DNA of 64,000 nucleotides from Microbacterium algeriense (GTDB lineage Bacteria > Actinomycetota > Actinomycetes > Actinomycetales > Microbacteriaceae). The translations under genes were made by a program, and so were the position numbers. The notes beneath the pieces are model-generated. The model was not told where the DNA came from. It did no database searches and worked only from the letters and a program-made list of their open reading frames with translations. The stretch lies in contig NZ_WAAO01000001.1 of the NCBI RefSeq assembly GCF_008868005.1, positions 434,001-498,000 on the forward strand. Direction: 5' to 3'. This document shows, piece after piece, positions 29,703-37,269 of this stretch (positions are counted from its first letter, which is position 1; each line of letters opens with the position of its first letter).

Positions 29703-30878
29703 TCAGGCGTAGATCAGGTCCGCCTCGACGGCTGCCGCCCACCGCGGCACCGCGAGAGAGGCGGGATCGTTCCACTGCCCGGCTGCGATCTGCGCGAACG
29801 CGCCGTGCACGCCGAAGAGCTTCTCGAGAGGCGACCAGTCCGACTCCCCTGGCATCGGCACGAGCGAGCGCTCGACGAGCGAATCCGGGTACAGCTCCGC
29901 GAGCAGCGAGAGAAGGCGGACGCCGGTGTGCACGGGACGCAAGGCCTCGGCGTCGGTCACATGAAGGATCACGCCCTCGCAGGCCTGACCGGCGTGGTCG
30001 CGCACGAGCGGCGTGAACCCGTACGGCGAGGCGGCGAGGCCGGGCAGCTCCAGCGCGTTCACCGCCTGGGCGTAGTCCTCGGCGTCGATGAACGGCGCCC
30101 CGATCACGCGGAACGGCACGGCGGTGCTGCGCCCCTCCGACACGTTCACGCCCTCCGCGAGGCAGGTGCCGGGGTAGAGGAGCGTGGTCGCCGCGCTCGG
30201 CAGGTTCAGCGACGGCGGCATCCAGGTCAGCTCCTGGCGGCCGATCGCCGTCTGCGTGCGCTCCCAGCCGTCGACGGCGACCACGTCGAGCTCGACGTCG
30301 ATGCCGCGCGTGCGCACCCAGTGCCTGGCGAGTTCCCCGATGGTGAGACCGTGGCGGATGGGCATGCTCCAGCGCCCGACGAGCGACTGCGCCGCCTCGT
30401 CGAGCATCGGTCCCTCGGCCTGGTCGAGCCGTCCGCCCAGCGGGTTGGGGCGGTCGAGCACGACGACGGACACCCCCGCGTCCGCGCAGGCCTCGAGCAG
30501 GTGGCTCATCGTCCAGATGTACGTGTAGAAGCGGGCGCCGACGTCGGGAAGGTCGACGAGCACGACATCCAGTCCGGACAGGTCCTCGGGAGCGGGGCGC
30601 ACGTCGGCGCCGTACAGGCTGCGCACGGGGATGCCGGTGACACGGTCGACGCCGCCGCTGACGAGCTCGCCCTCCCGCGCGCGTCCGTCCAGTCCGTGCT
30701 CCGGGCCGAAGAGGAGGTCGAGCGACCAGCCGGCGTCGGCCAGCGAGGCGCGTCCGCGTGTGAGCTGCGAGGTGAGCGCCAGGTCGTTCGTGAGCATCCC
30801 GATCCGGCTGCGCCGGAGCTTCGCGGCGAGCGGTTCCGGGAGGTCATGCTGGAGGAGTCGGTCGATTCCGAGTTTCAT
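29703..30878 (-). CDS. namZ: NamZ-type exo-N-acetylmuramidase (DUF1343, GH171)
   Basis: A 391-residue protein of the DUF1343/NamZ family. NamZ of Bacillus subtilis (YbbC) releases MurNAc from the non-reducing ends of peptidoglycan glycans. Family marks are IGMLTNDLALTSQ, LFGPEHGLDG, VDLPDVGARFYTYIWTMSHLLE, VVVLDRPNPLGG, LLYPGTCLAEGVNVSEGRST and the TPL...GQACEGV region. No signal peptide is visible, unlike many secreted homologues. It begins 4 nt after the stop of the MurR-like gene, so it is in the same operon. It faces an ABC importer and an AmlB-like hydrolase, matching a wall-fragment recycling role. Confidence 0.85.
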   Translation of the reverse strand: MKLGIDRLLQHDLPEPLAAKLRRSRIGMLTNDLALTSQLTRGRASLADAGWSLDLLFGPEHGLDGRAREGELVSGGVDRVTGIPVRSLYGADVRPAPEDLSGLDVVLVDLPDVGARFYTYIWTMSHLLEACADAGVSVVVLDRPNPLGGRLDQAEGPMLDEAAQSLVGRWSMPIRHGLTIGELARHWVRTRGIDVELDVVAVDGWERTQTAIGRQELTWMPPSLNLPSAATTLLYPGTCLAEGVNVSEGRSTAVPFRVIGAPFIDAEDYAQAVNALELPGLAASPYGFTPLVRDHAGQACEGVILHVTDAEALRPVHTGVRLLSLLAELYPDSLVERSLVPMPGESDWSPLEKLFGVHGAFAQIAAGQWNDPASLAVPRWAAAVEADLIYA

Positions 30879-30882
30879 GGGT

Positions 30883-31749
30883 TCAGTCGATTCTGTGTGT
30901 GGTGACGGCGTCGAGCGTGCGCTGCAGATTGTCGGAGATGGTGTCGTAGTCGGCCTGCGCGATGCGCGTGTAGAGGAAGTCGAGGAGCGCGAGCTGGGCG
31001 ATCCGGCTGGCCATGGCGCCGGAGCGGAACGTCGACTCCGACACGGCCGTCACGAGCACGAGCTCGCACGCGCGCGCGAGCGGCGATCGCGGGTTGTTGG
31101 TGATCGCGATCGTCGTCGCCCCGGCGCTCGCCGCGACCTGCGCGGCCTGCACGATCTCGAGCGTGCGACCGGAGTGCGAGATGGCGATCGCGACGTCCCG
31201 GGCGTCCAGCAGCGCCGCCCCGGTGAGGGCGAGGTGATGGTCGGTGCGCGCCTGGGCGACGAGGCCGGCGCGGTGCAGCTTCTGCTCGAGGTCCTGCGCG
31301 GCGAGGCCGCTGGAGGCGGCGCCGTAGATGTCGATGCGGCGGGCGCCCCGGAGCTCGGCGACGCAGCGTTCGAGTTCGTCGATGTCGAGCTGTCGGGCGG
31401 TGCGCTCGATGGCGGCGGCCTCGGCGAACGCGATCTTGCGGACGGTTGTGGCGGCGTCGTCGTAACGGCTCACATCCCCGGCCGACACCTGGAAACGTTC
31501 GCGATCGGAGGCGGTGCGCGTCAGCTCGGTCGCGAGGGCGAGGCGGATGTCGGGGAATCCGGCGAACCCGACGCTGCGGGTGAATCGCGCGACGCTCGCC
31601 ACCGACACGGAGCAGTCGTCGGCCAGTCGGGTGATGGAGCCCTCCACCACGGCCTGCGGGTCGGCGAGGACGTGCTCGGCGATGCGGCGCTCCGTCGGGG
31701 TCAACTCCGAGATGCGCTGGTGGATGGCTGTCACGACACTGTTCGGCAC
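30883..31749 (-). CDS. RpiR-family (MurR-like) regulator
   Basis: A regulator of about 288 residues, with an N-terminal HTH_6 domain (LTPTERRIAEHVLADPQAV, DCSVSVASVARFTRSVGFAGFPDIR) and a C-terminal SIS sugar-phosphate-binding domain (IDIYGAASSGLAAQDLEQKLHRAG, AIAISHSGRTLEIVQAAQVA). This is the architecture of MurR, which responds to MurNAc-6-phosphate. The GTG at 31749 is favoured (CATCAT stands 6 nt before it). It is translated just before namZ and divergent from the transporter operon. The sugar-phosphate specificity is inferred from context. Confidence 0.82.
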   Translation of the reverse strand: MPNSVVTAIHQRISELTPTERRIAEHVLADPQAVVEGSITRLADDCSVSVASVARFTRSVGFAGFPDIRLALATELTRTASDRERFQVSAGDVSRYDDAATTVRKIAFAEAAAIERTARQLDIDELERCVAELRGARRIDIYGAASSGLAAQDLEQKLHRAGLVAQARTDHHLALTGAALLDARDVAIAISHSGRTLEIVQAAQVAASAGATTIAITNNPRSPLARACELVLVTAVSESTFRSGAMASRIAQLALLDFLYTRIAQADYDTISDNLQRTLDAVTTHRID

Positions 31750-31783
31750 GAGGCCATGATGGCAGGCTTCGGTCACACTTCGG

Positions 31784-31830
31784 AAGGAATTTTCAGATTT
31801 GCTTGCATTTCTGTAAGAGATTGCCCAAAG
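31784..31830. promoter_or_regulatory. AT-rich divergent control region of the MurNAc-type cluster
   Basis: An AT-rich island between the MurR-like gene and the solute-binding-protein gene includes GGAAGGAATTTTC and the quasi-palindrome CAGATTTGCTTGCATTTCTG (31794-31813). It is the best candidate for the RpiR operator and divergent promoters. The rest of 31831-31987 shows no further structure. Confidence 0.45.
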
Positions 31831-31987
31831 TGGGCTTGTCGGCATCTCCCCGGACCGTGGCGGTGCTGCACGACACCGACGTCGCCCGACGCGTCTTCAG
31901 CACAGAGGCCGCACCGAACGACGACTCTTCCCGCAATCTCGGCAGCCACGACGTGCCCGGTGGCTGTCACCGTCCGAGAGGAACACC

Positions 31988-33271
31988 ATGCGAAACCGCC
32001 CCGTCCGCCTCGCGTCCACCGCAGGCCTTCTCGTCGCAGGGCTCGCCGTCGCGGGCTGCGCACCGGCCGCATCCAGCGGTGATGGCGCCGAAGACGTCAC
32101 CCTCACCGTCTGGTCCTGGCAGGCATCGTCCTCTCCGAAGTGGGAGGCCGTCTTCGACAAGTACGAGGAGTCCCACCCCGGGGTGACCGTCGAGTTCGAG
32201 GGCTTCCAGCCCACCGAGTACAACCAGATCCTCGCGACGGGCCTCGAGGGCAGCGACGGACCGGACATCGCGATGCTGCGCGCCTACGGCGGCATCCAGT
32301 CCGCGATCCAGTCCGAGCAGATCGTCCCGATCGACGACCTCGTCGACGGCCTCGACCAGTTCGACCCGACGGTGCTGCGCGCGGCCCAGGGCAAGGACGA
32401 CGGCAAGACCTACGGCGTCCCCTTCGCCTACCAGACCATGCAGATGTTCTACAACAAGACCATGTTCGACGAGATGGGCCTCGAGGAGCCCACGGACTGG
32501 GACGAGTTCATCGAGCTGCAGGAGACCCTGCTCGGCGAGGGCGTCACCCCGATGGCACTCGGCGCCCGCGAGGACTGGGTCCTGCCGATGTTCCACGACA
32601 TCGTGGGATCGGCGAACTACGGCGGATCCGAGTTCGAGGAGAAGGTGCTCGCCGGCGACGTCGACTTCACCGACCCCGCCTACGTCTCCTCGCTGCAGAT
32701 CGTCAAGGACATGCAGAAGTACCTCGACAAGAACGTGAACGCGATCGCCGTCGCCGACGCCGTGCTGCAGTTCACCTCGGGGCAGGCCGCGCAGTGGCCC
32801 GGCGGATCCTTCGACCTGCCGACGTTCCAGAACTCCGCCCCGGACACCGAGTGGGGCGTGTACGAGGTGCCGCCGGCCCCCGGCAGTGCGCTCGACCACG
32901 CGGTGACCCCCGGCTACGCCGACGGCAGCTTCGGCATCAACGCCGCGAGCGAGAAGCAGGAGGCCGCGACCGAGCTGCTCAACTGGATGACCACGAAGGA
33001 GTTCGGCCAGCTCGTCGCCGACGAGGTAGACCAGTTCTCGGCCCTGCCCGGCGTGGAGTACTCCGACCCGCTGATGCAGGAGATGAACGAGCAGTACACC
33101 GCCAACCCGGCACCGTACCTGCTGCTCGTCGACTTCCGCTACGGAGACCCGACCGGCACGGCCGTCCTCGGCCCGGACATCCAGGCGATGTTCCTCGGCG
33201 ACAAGACCCCCGAGCAGCTCGGCGCCGACCTGCAGTCCGGGATCTCCACCTGGTTCACCCCCGCATCCTGA
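31988..33271 (+). CDS. ABC sugar-type solute-binding lipoprotein
   Basis: A 427-residue extracellular binding protein of the carbohydrate family (SBP_bac type). The signal peptide ends VAGC with lipid Cys24. VTLTVWSWQ, LATGLEGSDGPDIAML, VPFAYQTMQMFYNKTMFDE and FTSGQAAQWPGGSFD are typical. It binds the substrate for the two permeases downstream. The substrate is likely a cell-wall-derived amino sugar such as MurNAc or a muropeptide saccharide, inferred from namZ and the MurR-like gene across the shared promoter. Confidence 0.85.
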   Translation: MRNRPVRLASTAGLLVAGLAVAGCAPAASSGDGAEDVTLTVWSWQASSSPKWEAVFDKYEESHPGVTVEFEGFQPTEYNQILATGLEGSDGPDIAMLRAYGGIQSAIQSEQIVPIDDLVDGLDQFDPTVLRAAQGKDDGKTYGVPFAYQTMQMFYNKTMFDEMGLEEPTDWDEFIELQETLLGEGVTPMALGAREDWVLPMFHDIVGSANYGGSEFEEKVLAGDVDFTDPAYVSSLQIVKDMQKYLDKNVNAIAVADAVLQFTSGQAAQWPGGSFDLPTFQNSAPDTEWGVYEVPPAPGSALDHAVTPGYADGSFGINAASEKQEAATELLNWMTTKEFGQLVADEVDQFSALPGVEYSDPLMQEMNEQYTANPAPYLLLVDFRYGDPTGTAVLGPDIQAMFLGDKTPEQLGADLQSGISTWFTPAS

Positions 33272-33276
33272 TCCGA

Positions 33277-33316
33277 CCGCGGTGGTGAGCGCCCGACCCG
33301 GCGCTCACCACCGCGG
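33277..33316 (+). promoter_or_regulatory. 17-bp hairpin between binding-protein and permease genes
   Basis: A perfect 17-bp stem, CCGCGGTGGTGAGCGCC (33277-33293) with GGCGCTCACCACCGCGG (33300-33316), has loop CGACCC. It lacks a U-run. Its place after the binding-protein gene fits an RNA-processing or stability element that keeps that gene more highly expressed than the permeases. Confidence 0.7.
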
Positions 33317-33334
33317 AGCGAAGGACTCACACCC

Positions 33335-34291
33335 ATGGCTCTGACCCTCCCCGTCCGGCGGCCGAAGGCCCGCCGCACCCGCACCGGCATCGCGCTCTCC
33401 ACCCCGACCGCCGCACTCTTCGTCCTGCCGGCGGCGGTGCTCTTCGCCGTCCTGATCCTGTACCCCATGCTCGCCGCGCTCAGCTACTCGTTCTTCGACT
33501 GGCAGGGCACGAAGCAGGGCGGCTTCGCCGGCGTCGCGAACTACATCACGCTCCTCACCAAGGAGCCCTACGCCTCCGAGCTGTGGAACGCCTTCGGCCA
33601 CAACCTGCTGCTGTTCGCCGGCGCCCTGGTGTTCCAGAACTCCCTGGGTCTCGGCATCGCCACCCTGCTGCACCGGCGCAAGCGCACGAAGCGCTTCTTC
33701 CAGACGATCTTCGCGCTGCCCTACCTCGTGAGCCCGATGGTGATCGGCTACCTCTGGTCGCTCATGCTGTCGCCGCTGTTCGGACCCGTGAACGCGATCC
33801 TCCGCGGGGTCGGCCTGGAGAGCCTGGCCCTTCCCTGGCTCGGCGACCCGCAGCTCGCGATCTGGGTGATCGTGCTGGTCAGCGCCTGGCAGTGGATCGG
33901 CTTCCCCATCCTGCTCTACGGTGCGGCCCTCGGCGGCATCCCCGAGGAGATCGAGGAGGCCGCCTCGCTCGACGGCGCGACCGCCGCCAAGCGCTTCCGC
34001 TACATCACGCTGCCCATGCTCACCCCGACGATCGGCATCATCACGGTGCTCACCTTCATCGGCAGCATGGAGGCGATGGCGATCCCGTTCGCGCTCGCCG
34101 GCTCGAACGGCGCACCCGCCGGTTCCACCGACGTGATGATGCTCCTCTTCTACCGCACCGCCTTCGAGTCCGGGAACCCGAACTCGATCGGCGTCTCCTC
34201 CGCGCTCGCGACGGTCCTGTTCCTCTTCATCATGGTGATCTCGGTCGTGATCACCTCCACGATGCGTCGCGCCGAACGAAAGCTGTTCTGA
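33335..34291 (+). CDS. ABC sugar permease (MalF/UgpA type)
   Basis: A 318-residue membrane permease with six or more helices. The cytoplasmic EAA loop EEIEEAASLDGATAAKRF, which contacts the ATPase, is intact. It forms the translocation pore with the next gene product. No ATPase gene is nearby, so a shared MsiK-type ATPase encoded elsewhere is expected. ATG follows GGAG by a normal distance and the hairpin by 18 nt. Confidence 0.88.
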   Translation: MALTLPVRRPKARRTRTGIALSTPTAALFVLPAAVLFAVLILYPMLAALSYSFFDWQGTKQGGFAGVANYITLLTKEPYASELWNAFGHNLLLFAGALVFQNSLGLGIATLLHRRKRTKRFFQTIFALPYLVSPMVIGYLWSLMLSPLFGPVNAILRGVGLESLALPWLGDPQLAIWVIVLVSAWQWIGFPILLYGAALGGIPEEIEEAASLDGATAAKRFRYITLPMLTPTIGIITVLTFIGSMEAMAIPFALAGSNGAPAGSTDVMMLLFYRTAFESGNPNSIGVSSALATVLFLFIMVISVVITSTMRRAERKLF

Positions 34292-35208
34292 TGAGCACCG
34301 CCATCGACACCCGTCAGGAGTCCACCACCGAGGCGATCGTCTCCGGGCGGCCGACCGCCCCGCGTCGCCGATCGCGCCGCACATCCGACACGCCCTTCAT
34401 CGGGCGCCTGCTCGCGAACGTGTTCCTCTGGGGATACGCGCTCATCGCGATCGGTCCGCTGCTGCTCATGGTCAACAACTCGCTGCGCACCCAGCAGCAG
34501 ATCGCGACGGAGCCGCTCGGTCTCCCCGTGCCGCCGACGTTCACGAGCTTCCAGAACGCCTGGATCACCGCGTCCTTCGACACGTACTTCATCAACTCGA
34601 TCACGGTCACGGTCGGGTCGGTCATCGTCACGACCGTCGTCTCGGTGCTCGCGGCCTATGCCTTCGCCCGGGCCAGGGCGAAGTTCTTCCGCGGGATCGA
34701 GGCCGTCTTCCTCTCGGGCCTCATGCTGCCGGTGCACCTCGCGATCCTGCCGCTGTTCTACCTGCTCGACTCCCTCAAGATGACGAGCAACGTGTTCAGT
34801 CTGATCCTCGTGTACGGCGCCCTCGGCATCCCGTTCACGACGTTCGTGCTCACGGTGTTCTTCCGGGCGCTGCCGATCGAGCTCGAGGAGGCGGCGCGCA
34901 TCGACGGCGCCGGTCCGCTGCGCACGTTCCTGCAGATCCTGCTGCCGCTGGTGCGACCGGCGCTCGCGACCGTGATCGTATTCCGGTTCGTGCCGGTGTG
35001 GAACGACTTCTTCTACCCGCTGATCCTGCTCCGCGACCGCGACTCCTACACGCTGCCCGTCGGTCTGACGCGCTTCTTCGGCGAGTACTCGACCGACTGG
35101 CCGCAGCTGTTCGCCGGACTCACGATCGCGACGATCCCGCTGGTGGTGCTGTTCCTGCTCGCGACCAAGCAGATCATCAACGGGCTGACCTCCGGCATGA
35201 GCAAGTGA
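34291..35208 (+). CDS. ABC sugar permease (MalG/UgpE type)
   Basis: A 305-residue partner permease whose ATG overlaps the previous stop by one base. The basic N-terminus (RRRSRRTSDT) precedes six membrane helices. The EAA loop PIELEEAARIDGAGPLRTF is present. It completes the permease dimer. The next gene, a serine hydrolase, starts 14 nt downstream. Confidence 0.88.
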   Translation: MSTAIDTRQESTTEAIVSGRPTAPRRRSRRTSDTPFIGRLLANVFLWGYALIAIGPLLLMVNNSLRTQQQIATEPLGLPVPPTFTSFQNAWITASFDTYFINSITVTVGSVIVTTVVSVLAAYAFARARAKFFRGIEAVFLSGLMLPVHLAILPLFYLLDSLKMTSNVFSLILVYGALGIPFTTFVLTVFFRALPIELEEAARIDGAGPLRTFLQILLPLVRPALATVIVFRFVPVWNDFFYPLILLRDRDSYTLPVGLTRFFGEYSTDWPQLFAGLTIATIPLVVLFLLATKQIINGLTSGMSK

Positions 35209-35221
35209 CGGGACCGTCGCG

Positions 35222-36202
35222 GTGGTGAACGGGGCGCCCGGTTCGGCCTGGGCCTCGCTGCGGGTCGTGCCCGGAGGGGAGGAGGAGCTGCAGCTGCTCG
35301 GAACCCCGGCGCACGACGACCCGTCGCCGCTGACCGCGCGACACCTGTTCGACCTCGCCTCCCTCACCAAGGTCTTCACGGCCGTGGCGGCCCTCCGGCT
35401 CGTCGACGACGGGCGCATCGACCTCGACGAACCCGTCGAGGCGGTCCTGCCGGTCGGCACGGGGGAAGCCGCGCACCGCATCACCCTGCGGCACCTCCTC
35501 ACCCACAGTTCGGGGCTCCCTGCGGAGGGGCGCGAGTGGCGGGAGGGGCTGCGCGGTGCGGAGCTGCGCCGACGGGTTCTGCAGCGTCCGCTCGGATTCG
35601 AGCCGGGTGCCGGACACCTCTATTCCGACGTGGGATACATCGCCGCGGGGGAGTACCTGGAGCGCGTCTCGGGTCGACCGCTCGCCGAACTGTGGGCGGA
35701 GGTGTCGGGCGCGATCGGCGCGGAGTCCCTGACCGCGGTACCGGAGCCGTCCCTCGCGGTGGCGACCGAGACGCAGCCGCACCGTGGTCCCGTGCGCGGG
35801 GCGGTGCACGACGAGCTGGCGCACGCGCTGGACCGTCCCGCCGGGCACGCGGGTCTGTTCGGCTCGGTGCACGACGTGGCCGCCCTCGCGCGGATGGTCC
35901 GTGACGGGGGAGACGGCCCGCACGGCCGGGTGCTCTCGGTCGCGTCCGTGCGGGACCTGACGACGGCGGCCGTGCGTGCGGACGACGGATACGGTCAGGC
36001 GATCGGGCTGCGGGTGCGTGACGAGTCCTGGATGGGGGACATCGACGCCGTGGGGCACACCGGGTTCACCGGGACCTGCTTCGCCGTGCATCCCGGCTCC
36101 GGCGCGTTCGGCGTCCTCCTCCTCAACCGCGTGCATCCCACCCGCGAGCACGCCGACATCGCCGCCGTCCGCCGCGCCTTCCTCTCTCCCCTCGCCCCCT
36201 GA
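35222..36202 (+). CDS. AmlB/YbbE-like serine hydrolase (beta-lactamase fold)
   Basis: A 326-residue serine hydrolase with all catalytic motifs: SLTK at 47-50, YSD at 134-136 and HTG at 279-281. VHDELAHALDRPAGHAGLFGSVHDVA is a block shared with YbbE (AmlB) and with proteins linked to DUF1343 genes. No signal peptide is seen, so it is probably cytoplasmic. In Bacillus an amlB gene lies in the murQRP-nagZ-namZ cluster. Here it ends the ABC operon and may act on imported peptide- or acyl-bearing saccharides. The GTG start at 35222 could instead be 35225. Confidence 0.8.
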   Translation: MVNGAPGSAWASLRVVPGGEEELQLLGTPAHDDPSPLTARHLFDLASLTKVFTAVAALRLVDDGRIDLDEPVEAVLPVGTGEAAHRITLRHLLTHSSGLPAEGREWREGLRGAELRRRVLQRPLGFEPGAGHLYSDVGYIAAGEYLERVSGRPLAELWAEVSGAIGAESLTAVPEPSLAVATETQPHRGPVRGAVHDELAHALDRPAGHAGLFGSVHDVAALARMVRDGGDGPHGRVLSVASVRDLTTAAVRADDGYGQAIGLRVRDESWMGDIDAVGHTGFTGTCFAVHPGSGAFGVLLLNRVHPTREHADIAAVRRAFLSPLAP

Positions 36203-36222: not shown

Positions 36223-37119
36223 TCAGTCCGTGCGGAGGGGGCGGAGGGTGCGGGCGTAGTCCTCCTTGAGGACCGCGAGGTGCAGCCAGGCCTCGATGCG
36301 GGTCACGCCCGGGAGCGCCCGCAGCCGCTCGAGGCTCGCGTACAGCGCACCGGCGGAGGGCTCCACCAGCGTCGCGACCGCGTCGAACCGGCCCAGGGTC
36401 CGCGCGGCGAAGTCCACGCCCCGGCCGCGGCGCAGCTCCTCGATCACGGCTTCGTCGTCGTCGCCGAGTGTCATCCCCACGCCCATGGACAGCTGCCGGT
36501 GCGCGAGACCGCGGGCCTCGACCGCGCTGATCTTGATGACGCCGGCGTCGATGAGCCGCTGCACCCTGGTCGCGACGGCGGAGGGGGAGAGTCGGACCTC
36601 TTCGCCGAGCGCGCGGAAGCTCTTGCGGCCGTCGGCCTGCAACTGCTCGATCAGAGCCTCGTCGATCGCGTCCAGTGTCACGCCGCCGTGGTACTCGGAG
36701 ACGAAGAAGCCCTTGACGACGGTCGAGTAGATGATCGTGCTGATGTCGAGTACTCCGGCGCTTCCGCGGATCCGGGCGAGCAGCTCGTGCAGCTCCGACA
36801 TCGAGCCGACACGCACCTCCGTGACGATGTCGTGCGCGCCGCCGACCGCCGACACGAGCACGGTCTCGCTCATGTCGCGCAGGTGCTCGGCCACGAGCTC
36901 GACGGCCCCGTCGGTGCGGATGGAGACGTGGGCGAGCACGTGCTGACCGAGGAACACCGGATCGACCGCGGCCACCACGCGCACCGTGCGGTCGGCGAGC
37001 ATGCTCCGCAGGCGGGCGGCGACCGCGGCGCGGGACTGTCCGAGGCGCTGGGAGAGGGAGAGGATGCTGGCGCGCCCGTCCTCCTGCAGCGCTCGGATGA
37101 GTTCGGCGTCGAAGTCCAT
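36223..37119 (-). CDS. double-module Lrp/AsnC-type regulator
   Basis: About 298 residues. Two Lrp/AsnC units are present in tandem: the first HTH (DAELIRALQEDGRASILSLS) with a RAM-like sensor domain, then a second HTH from about residue 150 (DEALIEQLQADGRKSFRALG) with a second sensor domain. Single Lrp proteins have about 150 residues. It is divergent from a transporter-catabolic operon with guanidino-compound enzymes and probably controls it in response to an amino acid. ATG at 37119 is chosen; the longer reading lacks conservation. Confidence 0.82.
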   Translation of the reverse strand: MDFDAELIRALQEDGRASILSLSQRLGQSRAAVAARLRSMLADRTVRVVAAVDPVFLGQHVLAHVSIRTDGAVELVAEHLRDMSETVLVSAVGGAHDIVTEVRVGSMSELHELLARIRGSAGVLDISTIIYSTVVKGFFVSEYHGGVTLDAIDEALIEQLQADGRKSFRALGEEVRLSPSAVATRVQRLIDAGVIKISAVEARGLAHRQLSMGVGMTLGDDDEAVIEELRRGRGVDFAARTLGRFDAVATLVEPSAGALYASLERLRALPGVTRIEAWLHLAVLKEDYARTLRPLRTD

Positions 37120-37269
37120 GGTCCCGGCTGCTTTCGTCAGATTCCCGCGTTCGCACGGTCGGCCGTGCATAGCAACAGTGTAGAAGCCTCTGCGACCGCG
37201 AGGAAGGCCCGGAATGAGTGATGACTACGACAGAAAACCAGTGAATGACCCTTCTCGCTGGAGTTCTGC

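Follow-up and report, generated by a model that had tools for sequence, protein, structure and literature searches.

A stretch of 64,000 nucleotides from Microbacterium algeriense (in the following the window, meaning the whole stretch analysed; C1:434001-498000 of the 3.63 Mb genome G000, which comprises 9 contigs) harbors a cluster of six genes that we propose to serve the uptake of saccharides of N-acetylmuramic acid (MurNAc) by an ATP-binding cassette (ABC) transporter, together with the first cuts in their salvage. As the initial annotation had described, namZ and the gene of an RpiR-type regulator, separated by 4 nt, run divergently from the genes of a solute-binding protein (SBP), two permeases and a serine hydrolase, and all six genes were confirmed:

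29703-30878, minus strand: NamZ, exo-beta-N-acetylmuramidase family (PF07075 219.6 bits, PF20732 120 bits)
30883-31845, minus strand: RpiR/MurR-type regulator (HTH_6 and SIS domains; likely true start 31749)
31750-31987, no strand assigned: putative promoter/operator region between the divergent genes; an AT-rich block of ~45 bp is partly conserved in an alignment of 13 Microbacterium-type intergenic regions
31988-33271, plus strand: lipoprotein SBP of the CUT1/SBP_bac_1 type (PF01547), proposed MurNAc-saccharide binder; orthologues adjoin murQ
33335-34291, plus strand: ABC permease 1 (PF00528, EEAASLDG)
34291-35208, plus strand: ABC permease 2 (PF00528, EEAARIDG; ATGA overlap with permease 1)
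35222-36202, plus strand: AmiE/AmlB-type serine hydrolase, proposed cytosolic MurNAc-L-Ala amidase (PF00144 173.6 bits; no signal peptide)

Both Pfam domains of NamZ lie well above their gathering scores (26.9 for PF07075 and 25 for PF20732) and place the protein in its family, for which exo-cleavage of MurNAc at the non-reducing end is predicted; its relatives in the PDB are 4k05 and 4jja. It is the only NamZ match of the genome (E-value at most 1e-20), and its nearest named relatives among the best 80 of 397 candidates belong to Microbacterium spp. (75-78% identity). An SBP_bac_1 lipoprotein (lipobox VAGC at residues 21-24), two BPD_transp_1 permeases that both carry an EEAAxxDG stretch, and presumably an ATPase encoded elsewhere together make up a sugar importer of the CUT1 type. 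The serine hydrolase was called AmlB-like by the initial annotation, which we take to mean the protein named AmiE (ybbE), and it indeed combines its PF00144 match with all active-site motifs (S47LTK, Y134SD, H279TG); muramyl-peptide amidase activity is predicted. Its best NCBIfam model is PBP4B (88 bits, under the cut-off), whose gene in E. coli belongs to the murQ operon (PMC5061867).

The regulator combines its helix-turn-helix and SIS domains with a position divergent from the transporter genes, and a response to MurNAc-6-phosphate is predicted; its MurR/RpiR-type NCBIfam matches all stay under their cut-offs (MurR model 119 bits versus 408). Since HTH_6 begins only at residue 38 of the longest open reading frame (ORF), translation probably starts at the GTG at 31749. 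The adjoining 31750-31860 holds the AT-rich block with stretches such as AATTTTC and TGTAA, partly conserved in the 13 Microbacterium-type divergons and a candidate RpiR operator, and a related locus (L196) contains the full palindrome CTGTAAATAATTTACAG.

The six genes fill the span 29703-36202, which therefore has no ATPase, MurQ, MurK, NagZ or MurP (a MurP-type phosphotransferase system (PTS) was looked for in the cluster only). The kinase and etherase that the initial annotation had found missing from the cluster are both encoded on contig C2, where murQ (TIGR00274 363.2 bits, cut-off 302) directly follows the gene of a 298-aa, MurK-like kinase of the BadF/BadG type, the longest ORFs overlapping by 11 nt, with a second RpiR gene divergent from the pair. 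This second divergon (L083:7503-10319, i.e., G000:C2, ~21.5-24.3 kb) likewise occurs in G106 (L180) and G168 (L182). The kinase matches PF01869 (63.7 bits) and, under the cut-off, the NCBIfam NagK model (77 bits), while a profile built from it and seven relatives finds in the PDB a hexokinase (2e2n, 1e-31), a MurNAc/GlcNAc kinase (8zo3, 1e-28; GlcNAc, N-acetylglucosamine) and human NAGK (2e-16), which fits MurK but is not proof of it. Candidates for the other partners that had been suggested for a genome search are present as well. One of six GH3 matches, inspected individually, is a NagZ-like protein of 394 aa that contains KHFPGHG and seems to carry a signal peptide. A UgpC/MsiK-type ATPase (470 bits; C1:1183992-1185068) has neither SBP nor permease alongside (neighbours judged by eye) and would presumably be the one that powers this transporter. 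NagA and NagB barely exceed their cut-offs; AnmK lies well above its own.

Conservation of the block was assessed by using the window's proteins as tblastn queries on 79 NamZ loci (from the best 80 of 397 candidates). All six genes and their order are preserved in each of the 12 Microbacterium-type loci (L004-L015; the contig of L008 ends within the hydrolase gene, and in L010 the AmiE match falls into two pieces), which answers the call for a comparison with related genomes; moreover, the namZ-murR pair, whose absence beside the transporter in relatives would have spoken against the initial annotation, is kept in L004-L015 and in L193-L196. Across the 12 loci the transporter is more conserved (SBP 89-95%, permeases 89-98% identity) than the enzymes (NamZ 75-78%, AmiE 64-72%), with RpiR at 77-81%.

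Further relatives bring the missing enzymes into the picture. The divergon of the window has counterparts in L193, where the stretch from regulator to AmiE also contains murQ and murK, and in L194 and L196, where it contains murQ only. A genome of another genus of Microbacteriaceae (G301) has NamZ-RpiR divergent from MurQ-SBP-P1-P2-MurK-AmiE (P1 and P2, the permeases); the same type occurs without MurK in G312 and G483, with AmiE on the NamZ side in G392, and as RpiR-AmiE divergent from MurQ-SBP-P1-P2, without NamZ, in G213 and G094. Intrasporangiaceae (L075, Knoellia flava; L080, Intrasporangium; L082/L158, Janibacter) and L163 (G028) even have the whole pathway at a single locus that includes the orthologous transporter, as co-directional NagZ-NamZ-AmiE-RpiR-MurQ-SBP-P1-P2-MurK, and two Streptosporangiaceae show NagZ-NamZ-MurQ-SBP-P1-P2-RpiR, with AmiE too in L065; the SBPs of these loci (L059, L065, L075, L080, L082, L163) are 47-52% identical to that of the window. 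Judged by these gene orders, the window's cluster appears to be a form of this system from which murQ and murK have been relocated or lost. NamZ is optional, as L161 and L162 carry the transporter without it, and MurQ is constant among strong SBP matches.

Several loci deviate from this scheme. In L199 (G326:C45; Microbacteriaceae), murQ-murK face RpiR-NamZ-AmiE, and then come a distantly related SBP (30%) and permeases; an ABC importer may have joined these enzymes independently here. L198 (G350:C1) combines a 40% SBP relative and permeases with RpiR, an apparent SIS-domain protein and an apparent sugar kinase, murQ lying 490 kb off, and its transporter may have another amino sugar as cargo. 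Outside Actinomycetota, the Anaerolineae loci L017, L021 and L028 encode a signal-less NamZ and MurQ, L017 also with MurK and AmiE matches. In L061 (Knoellia sp. Soil729), NamZ-AmiE-RpiR-MurQ-MurK occur with no transporter, which in Knoellia flava (L075) stands between MurQ and MurK, so that the two offer a natural transporter-less comparison.

The tie between transporter and MurQ extends to genome level. Among the 296 genomes of a class sample (E-values of at most 1e-60 for the SBP profile A1, 1e-50 for MurQ and 1e-20 for NamZ), the SBP was found in 24, MurQ in 106 and NamZ in 56, and all 24 SBP genomes had MurQ (Fisher p 3.1e-12), as did 55 of the 56 NamZ genomes. Kinship among genomes inflates such p-values, and the count by genus is therefore fairer: MurQ is present in 14/14 SBP genera versus 41/114 genera overall (p 1.1e-7). 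A family sample of 249 genomes yielded the SBP in 12, MurQ in 51 and NamZ in 7, with MurQ in 10 of the 12 SBP genomes. Both samples pooled, 33 genomes have an SBP match, 22 of them strong (380 bits or more) and 11 weaker. MurQ accompanies all 22 strong matches and murQ lies within 300 bp in 11 of them (19/19 and 10/19 without G000, G168 (L008) and G178 (L082), which were used to build the profile); among the weaker ones MurQ occurs in 9/11, adjacent in 1 and within 12 kb in 4 (that 1 included). Chance clustering was rejected on the grounds of this linkage across genomes and of the six-gene order kept in 12/12 loci.

The most unusual feature of the cluster is that both NamZ and AmiE appear to be cytosolic. 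Signal peptides were called by a simple heuristic whose reach ends 80 codons before the match; owing to this limit it misses exported AmiE with long N-termini, and AmiE of L075 and L080 was judged by eye. It flagged 49/50 SBP, 26/33 NagZ, 45/92 NamZ, 2/53 MurQ, 1/10 MurK, 2/61 RpiR and 6/61 AmiE; among Microbacteriaceae AmiE it flagged L194, taken as a false positive. With ABC loci defined by an SBP match above 150 bits (without L199, and without L157 and L158, which duplicate L008 and L082), NamZ carries a signal in 0/17 loci of Microbacteriaceae (window, L004-L015, L193-L196) versus 6/6 other ABC loci with NamZ (L059, L065, L075, L080, L082, L163). The lack of a signal peptide in NamZ, from which the initial annotation took it that the enzyme may act after import, is shared by all 17 loci. 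In these 17 loci the NamZ domain begins right at the N-terminus, the window's NamZ does not show the signal of exported, B. subtilis-type NamZ, and no more than 7 open codons precede the GTG start of its AmiE; NamZ of L199 is signal-less as well. NagZ is found in all 6 loci with exported NamZ and in 0/17 Microbacteriaceae loci within the flanking DNA examined. From the contrast in NamZ signals, fragments are probably imported before they are cut in Microbacteriaceae.

A NamZ tree (89 rows, quick method, midpoint root; L157, L158 and L063 dropped, L074 unlabelled) suggests that this state is old. Export labels were taken from the heuristic, except for L188, which was relabelled manually as signal-less since its hydrophobic stretch falls inside the domain. 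The 17 Microbacteriaceae NamZ group in a single branch (99*) that lies among 26 rows without a signal, some of them from Chloroflexota, Myxococcota, Planctomycetota, Bacteroidota and Elusimicrobiota. The midpoint root separates them from the 6 exported NamZ of ABC loci, and 18 more signal-less NamZ (L188 included), many adjoining murQ, make up another branch. Three changes suffice to explain the export state on the tree, which falls into few blocks. A recent loss of the signal in Microbacterium was rejected on these grounds, and the window's NamZ is, as far as this phylogeny can tell, from an old signal-less lineage. Tree and export split therefore tie the core of RpiR, MurQ and transporter to two distant NamZ lineages.

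Taken together, the transporter is best understood as an ABC importer of MurNAc saccharides, its ligand being read solely from the company that the gene keeps, and the cluster would provide one half of a salvage pathway, namely uptake and the first cuts, with the fragments cut inside the cell; to this reading we assign a probability of roughly 0.78. From the observed genes, their order, co-occurrence and linkage, and the absent signals we infer a route whose ligand, enzyme activities, ATPase pairing and regulation would be as follows. Outside the cell, the GH3 NagZ-like protein with its apparent signal and other wall hydrolases would release MurNAc-ended fragments, of which the lipoprotein SBP would capture a MurNAc saccharide (MurNAc-GlcNAc, MurNAc-peptide or MurNAc), to be imported unphosphorylated by the two permeases, for which the shared MsiK-like ATPase would supply the energy. 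In the cytosol, stem peptides, where present, would be removed by the AmiE-type hydrolase and MurNAc would be split from GlcNAc by NamZ, both without a signal. The MurK-like kinase would then phosphorylate MurNAc, and probably GlcNAc too, whereupon MurQ would take off D-lactate, and NagA and NagB would lead the product to fructose-6-phosphate; a route by MurK and then MurQ is reportedly also taken by MurNAc in Clostridium acetobutylicum. The divergent RpiR protein would repress the cluster until MurNAc-6-phosphate or a related phosphosugar rises. The outline of the initial annotation, an ABC version of a MurNAc cluster that needs MurK and then MurQ and has NamZ acting inside, has hence come through the main computational tests and is very probably right, with the ligand still a prediction. 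As a broader proposal, for which we consider the chances evenly balanced, actinobacteria would possess a dedicated CUT1-type MurNAc-saccharide importer with one core (RpiR, MurQ, transporter, often MurK) in two forms: one in which exported NagZ and NamZ digest outside, and that of Microbacteriaceae, which would import MurNAc-GlcNAc or muropeptides whole and cut them inside with an old signal-less NamZ and AmiE, two distant NamZ lineages having filled the same operon slot.

A number of observations weigh against this interpretation. Kinase and etherase are in this genome unlinked to the transporter, under a second RpiR; the murK-murQ promoters are without the conserved ~45-bp block, and no shared operator was found that would support co-regulation with the cluster. 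The kinase is also close to hexokinase and GlcNAc kinases, 2e2n outscoring 8zo3. In PDB sequence searches the SBP is only distantly like solved sugar binders, and its AlphaFold model (9 rows; predicted local distance difference test, pLDDT, 64.6) is too poor to read the pocket. Across 19 SBP orthologues Arg98 is almost invariant, while His203 and Arg384 are invariant in a set of 9 but vary among the 19; all three are candidates for contact with the lactyl carboxylate. Among the strong SBP genomes murQ is non-adjacent in 11/22, one of these, a 46% SBP orthologue in L169 (G174) with no MurQ close by, adjoins a regulator of apparent GntR type (L169:8113-8880, judged by eye), and 2 of the 11 weaker SBP genomes (G334, G480) are without MurQ, so that related transporters probably carry other cargo. 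Furthermore, 82 of the 106 MurQ genomes of the class sample are without this SBP, and a MurQ match falls within the flanking DNA examined at 25 NamZ loci, of which 5 have the SBP and 20 (including L061) have none. Even in the window's genus, SBP and NamZ occur together in just 2 of 8 sampled genomes (G000, G168), the other 6 having MurQ only (G106, G138, G187) or none of the three (G148, G239, G265). The transporter is thus one of several partners of these enzymes and no general partner.

What else could it carry? A narrower explanation that overlaps with the proposed one is an importer for free MurNAc only, the signal-less NamZ and AmiE acting on fragments that enter the cytosol otherwise. 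Because NamZ and, by eye, NagZ carry signals in the exported-enzyme loci with their 47-52% identical SBPs, free MurNAc would be the natural cargo there; in Microbacteriaceae, however, both hydrolases adjoin the transporter without a convincing signal, and the genome has no second NamZ match, so that free MurNAc would need some other enzyme outside, which makes this explanation possible but rather doubtful. Import of GlcNAc or chitobiose-type sugars, with murQ nearby only since GlcNAc-6-phosphate is a shared intermediate, could be suspected from the SBP profile, which matches 14 PDB sequences including the chitin-oligosaccharide binders 7eho and 7ehp, and from NgcE of S. coelicolor, which binds GlcNAc tighter than MurNAc (PMC6167110). 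These PDB matches nevertheless say little, because the others bind other sugars or are unnamed (the best, 4g68, is titled just 'ABC transporter'), and GlcNAc uptake needs no MurQ, AmiE or NamZ, yet these are constant or frequent partners; we regard it as unlikely. Less probable still is a cargo of a different acidic or peptide-bearing sugar with only loosely associated wall-sugar genes: half of the strong orthologues do not adjoin murQ and one has an apparently different regulator, but MurQ in 22/22 strong genomes versus 106/296 in the class sample speaks against it.

Under the preferred reading, a MurNAc-saccharide importer with cutting inside, the locus is a concrete candidate for one actinobacterial MurNAc importer, complete with an orthologue set and partner enzymes. 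According to PMC5061867, MurNAc is recycled in S. coelicolor, which possesses MurQ along with a MurR-like gene but no MurP orthologue, and a 2026 preprint calls the mycobacterial MurNAc importer unknown (PMC13041923). The SBP, present in just 24/296 class genomes, gives no direct answer for Streptomyces or mycobacteria. Two 2026 reviews name as importers MurP, MurT, AmpG, Opp-MppA, Dpp and YejBEF-YepA and, in the portions available, no sugar-type ABC transporter for MurNAc (PMC13209645, PMC13204101); nor did our literature searches, with partial coverage of NamZ, NamZ1/2 and MurK work, so that an earlier mention is possible, bring up a MurNAc-specific one. The cluster also predicts a cytosolic role for enzymes that a review places extracellularly (PMC13204101). 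Its neighbours are an Lrp/AsnC-type regulator downstream on the other strand (36223-37170) and a DUF3253 protein upstream.

Compared with known systems, the cluster is best regarded as a variant of the MurQ/NamZ/AmiE systems, for which we suggest the name actinobacterial ABC-type MurNAc-saccharide salvage cluster. Its relatives share with murQ-murR-murP-amiE-nagZ-ybbC(namZ) of B. subtilis the same enzyme set of MurQ, NamZ, a MurR-type regulator and an AmiE-type hydrolase, as well as NagZ in the full actinobacterial versions. MurQ lies on C2 here and in the cluster in relatives, and the place of MurP is taken by the SBP and two BPD_transp_1 permeases (a MurP-type PTS elsewhere was not searched for); instead of the PTS MurP, which imports and phosphorylates, an ABC importer and a separate kinase would be at work. 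The MurK of C. acetobutylicum is named a MurNAc/GlcNAc kinase (PMC10465942). Furthermore, NagZ and AmiE of Bacillus act outside (PMC5061867), whereas NamZ and AmiE are here without signals. YejBEF-YepA of Agrobacterium and OppBCDF-MppA are likewise ABC importers of peptidoglycan fragments, but peptide-type ones for muropeptides or peptides (PMC9790009, PMC13204101), unlike the CUT1 sugar-type transporter tied to MurQ and partly MurK. DasABC-MsiK and NgcEFG-MsiK of Streptomyces are also sugar ABC importers without an ATPase gene of their own that share MsiK, yet they are chitobiose systems, for which the available sections of the source describe no tie to MurQ, NamZ or AmiE (PMC6167110). With mupG-murQ-murP-murR of S. 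aureus, too, import comes first: MurNAc-GlcNAc, the natural cargo of MurP, is taken up and, once phosphorylated, cleaved in the cytosol by MupG (PMC6262408). Uptake there is by PTS and the cut by a 6-phospho-muramidase (DUF871); in the window's cluster, NamZ would act on the disaccharide before any phosphorylation and the kinase would then handle the products, which would make the cluster a PTS-free counterpart of the import-then-cut route of S. aureus.

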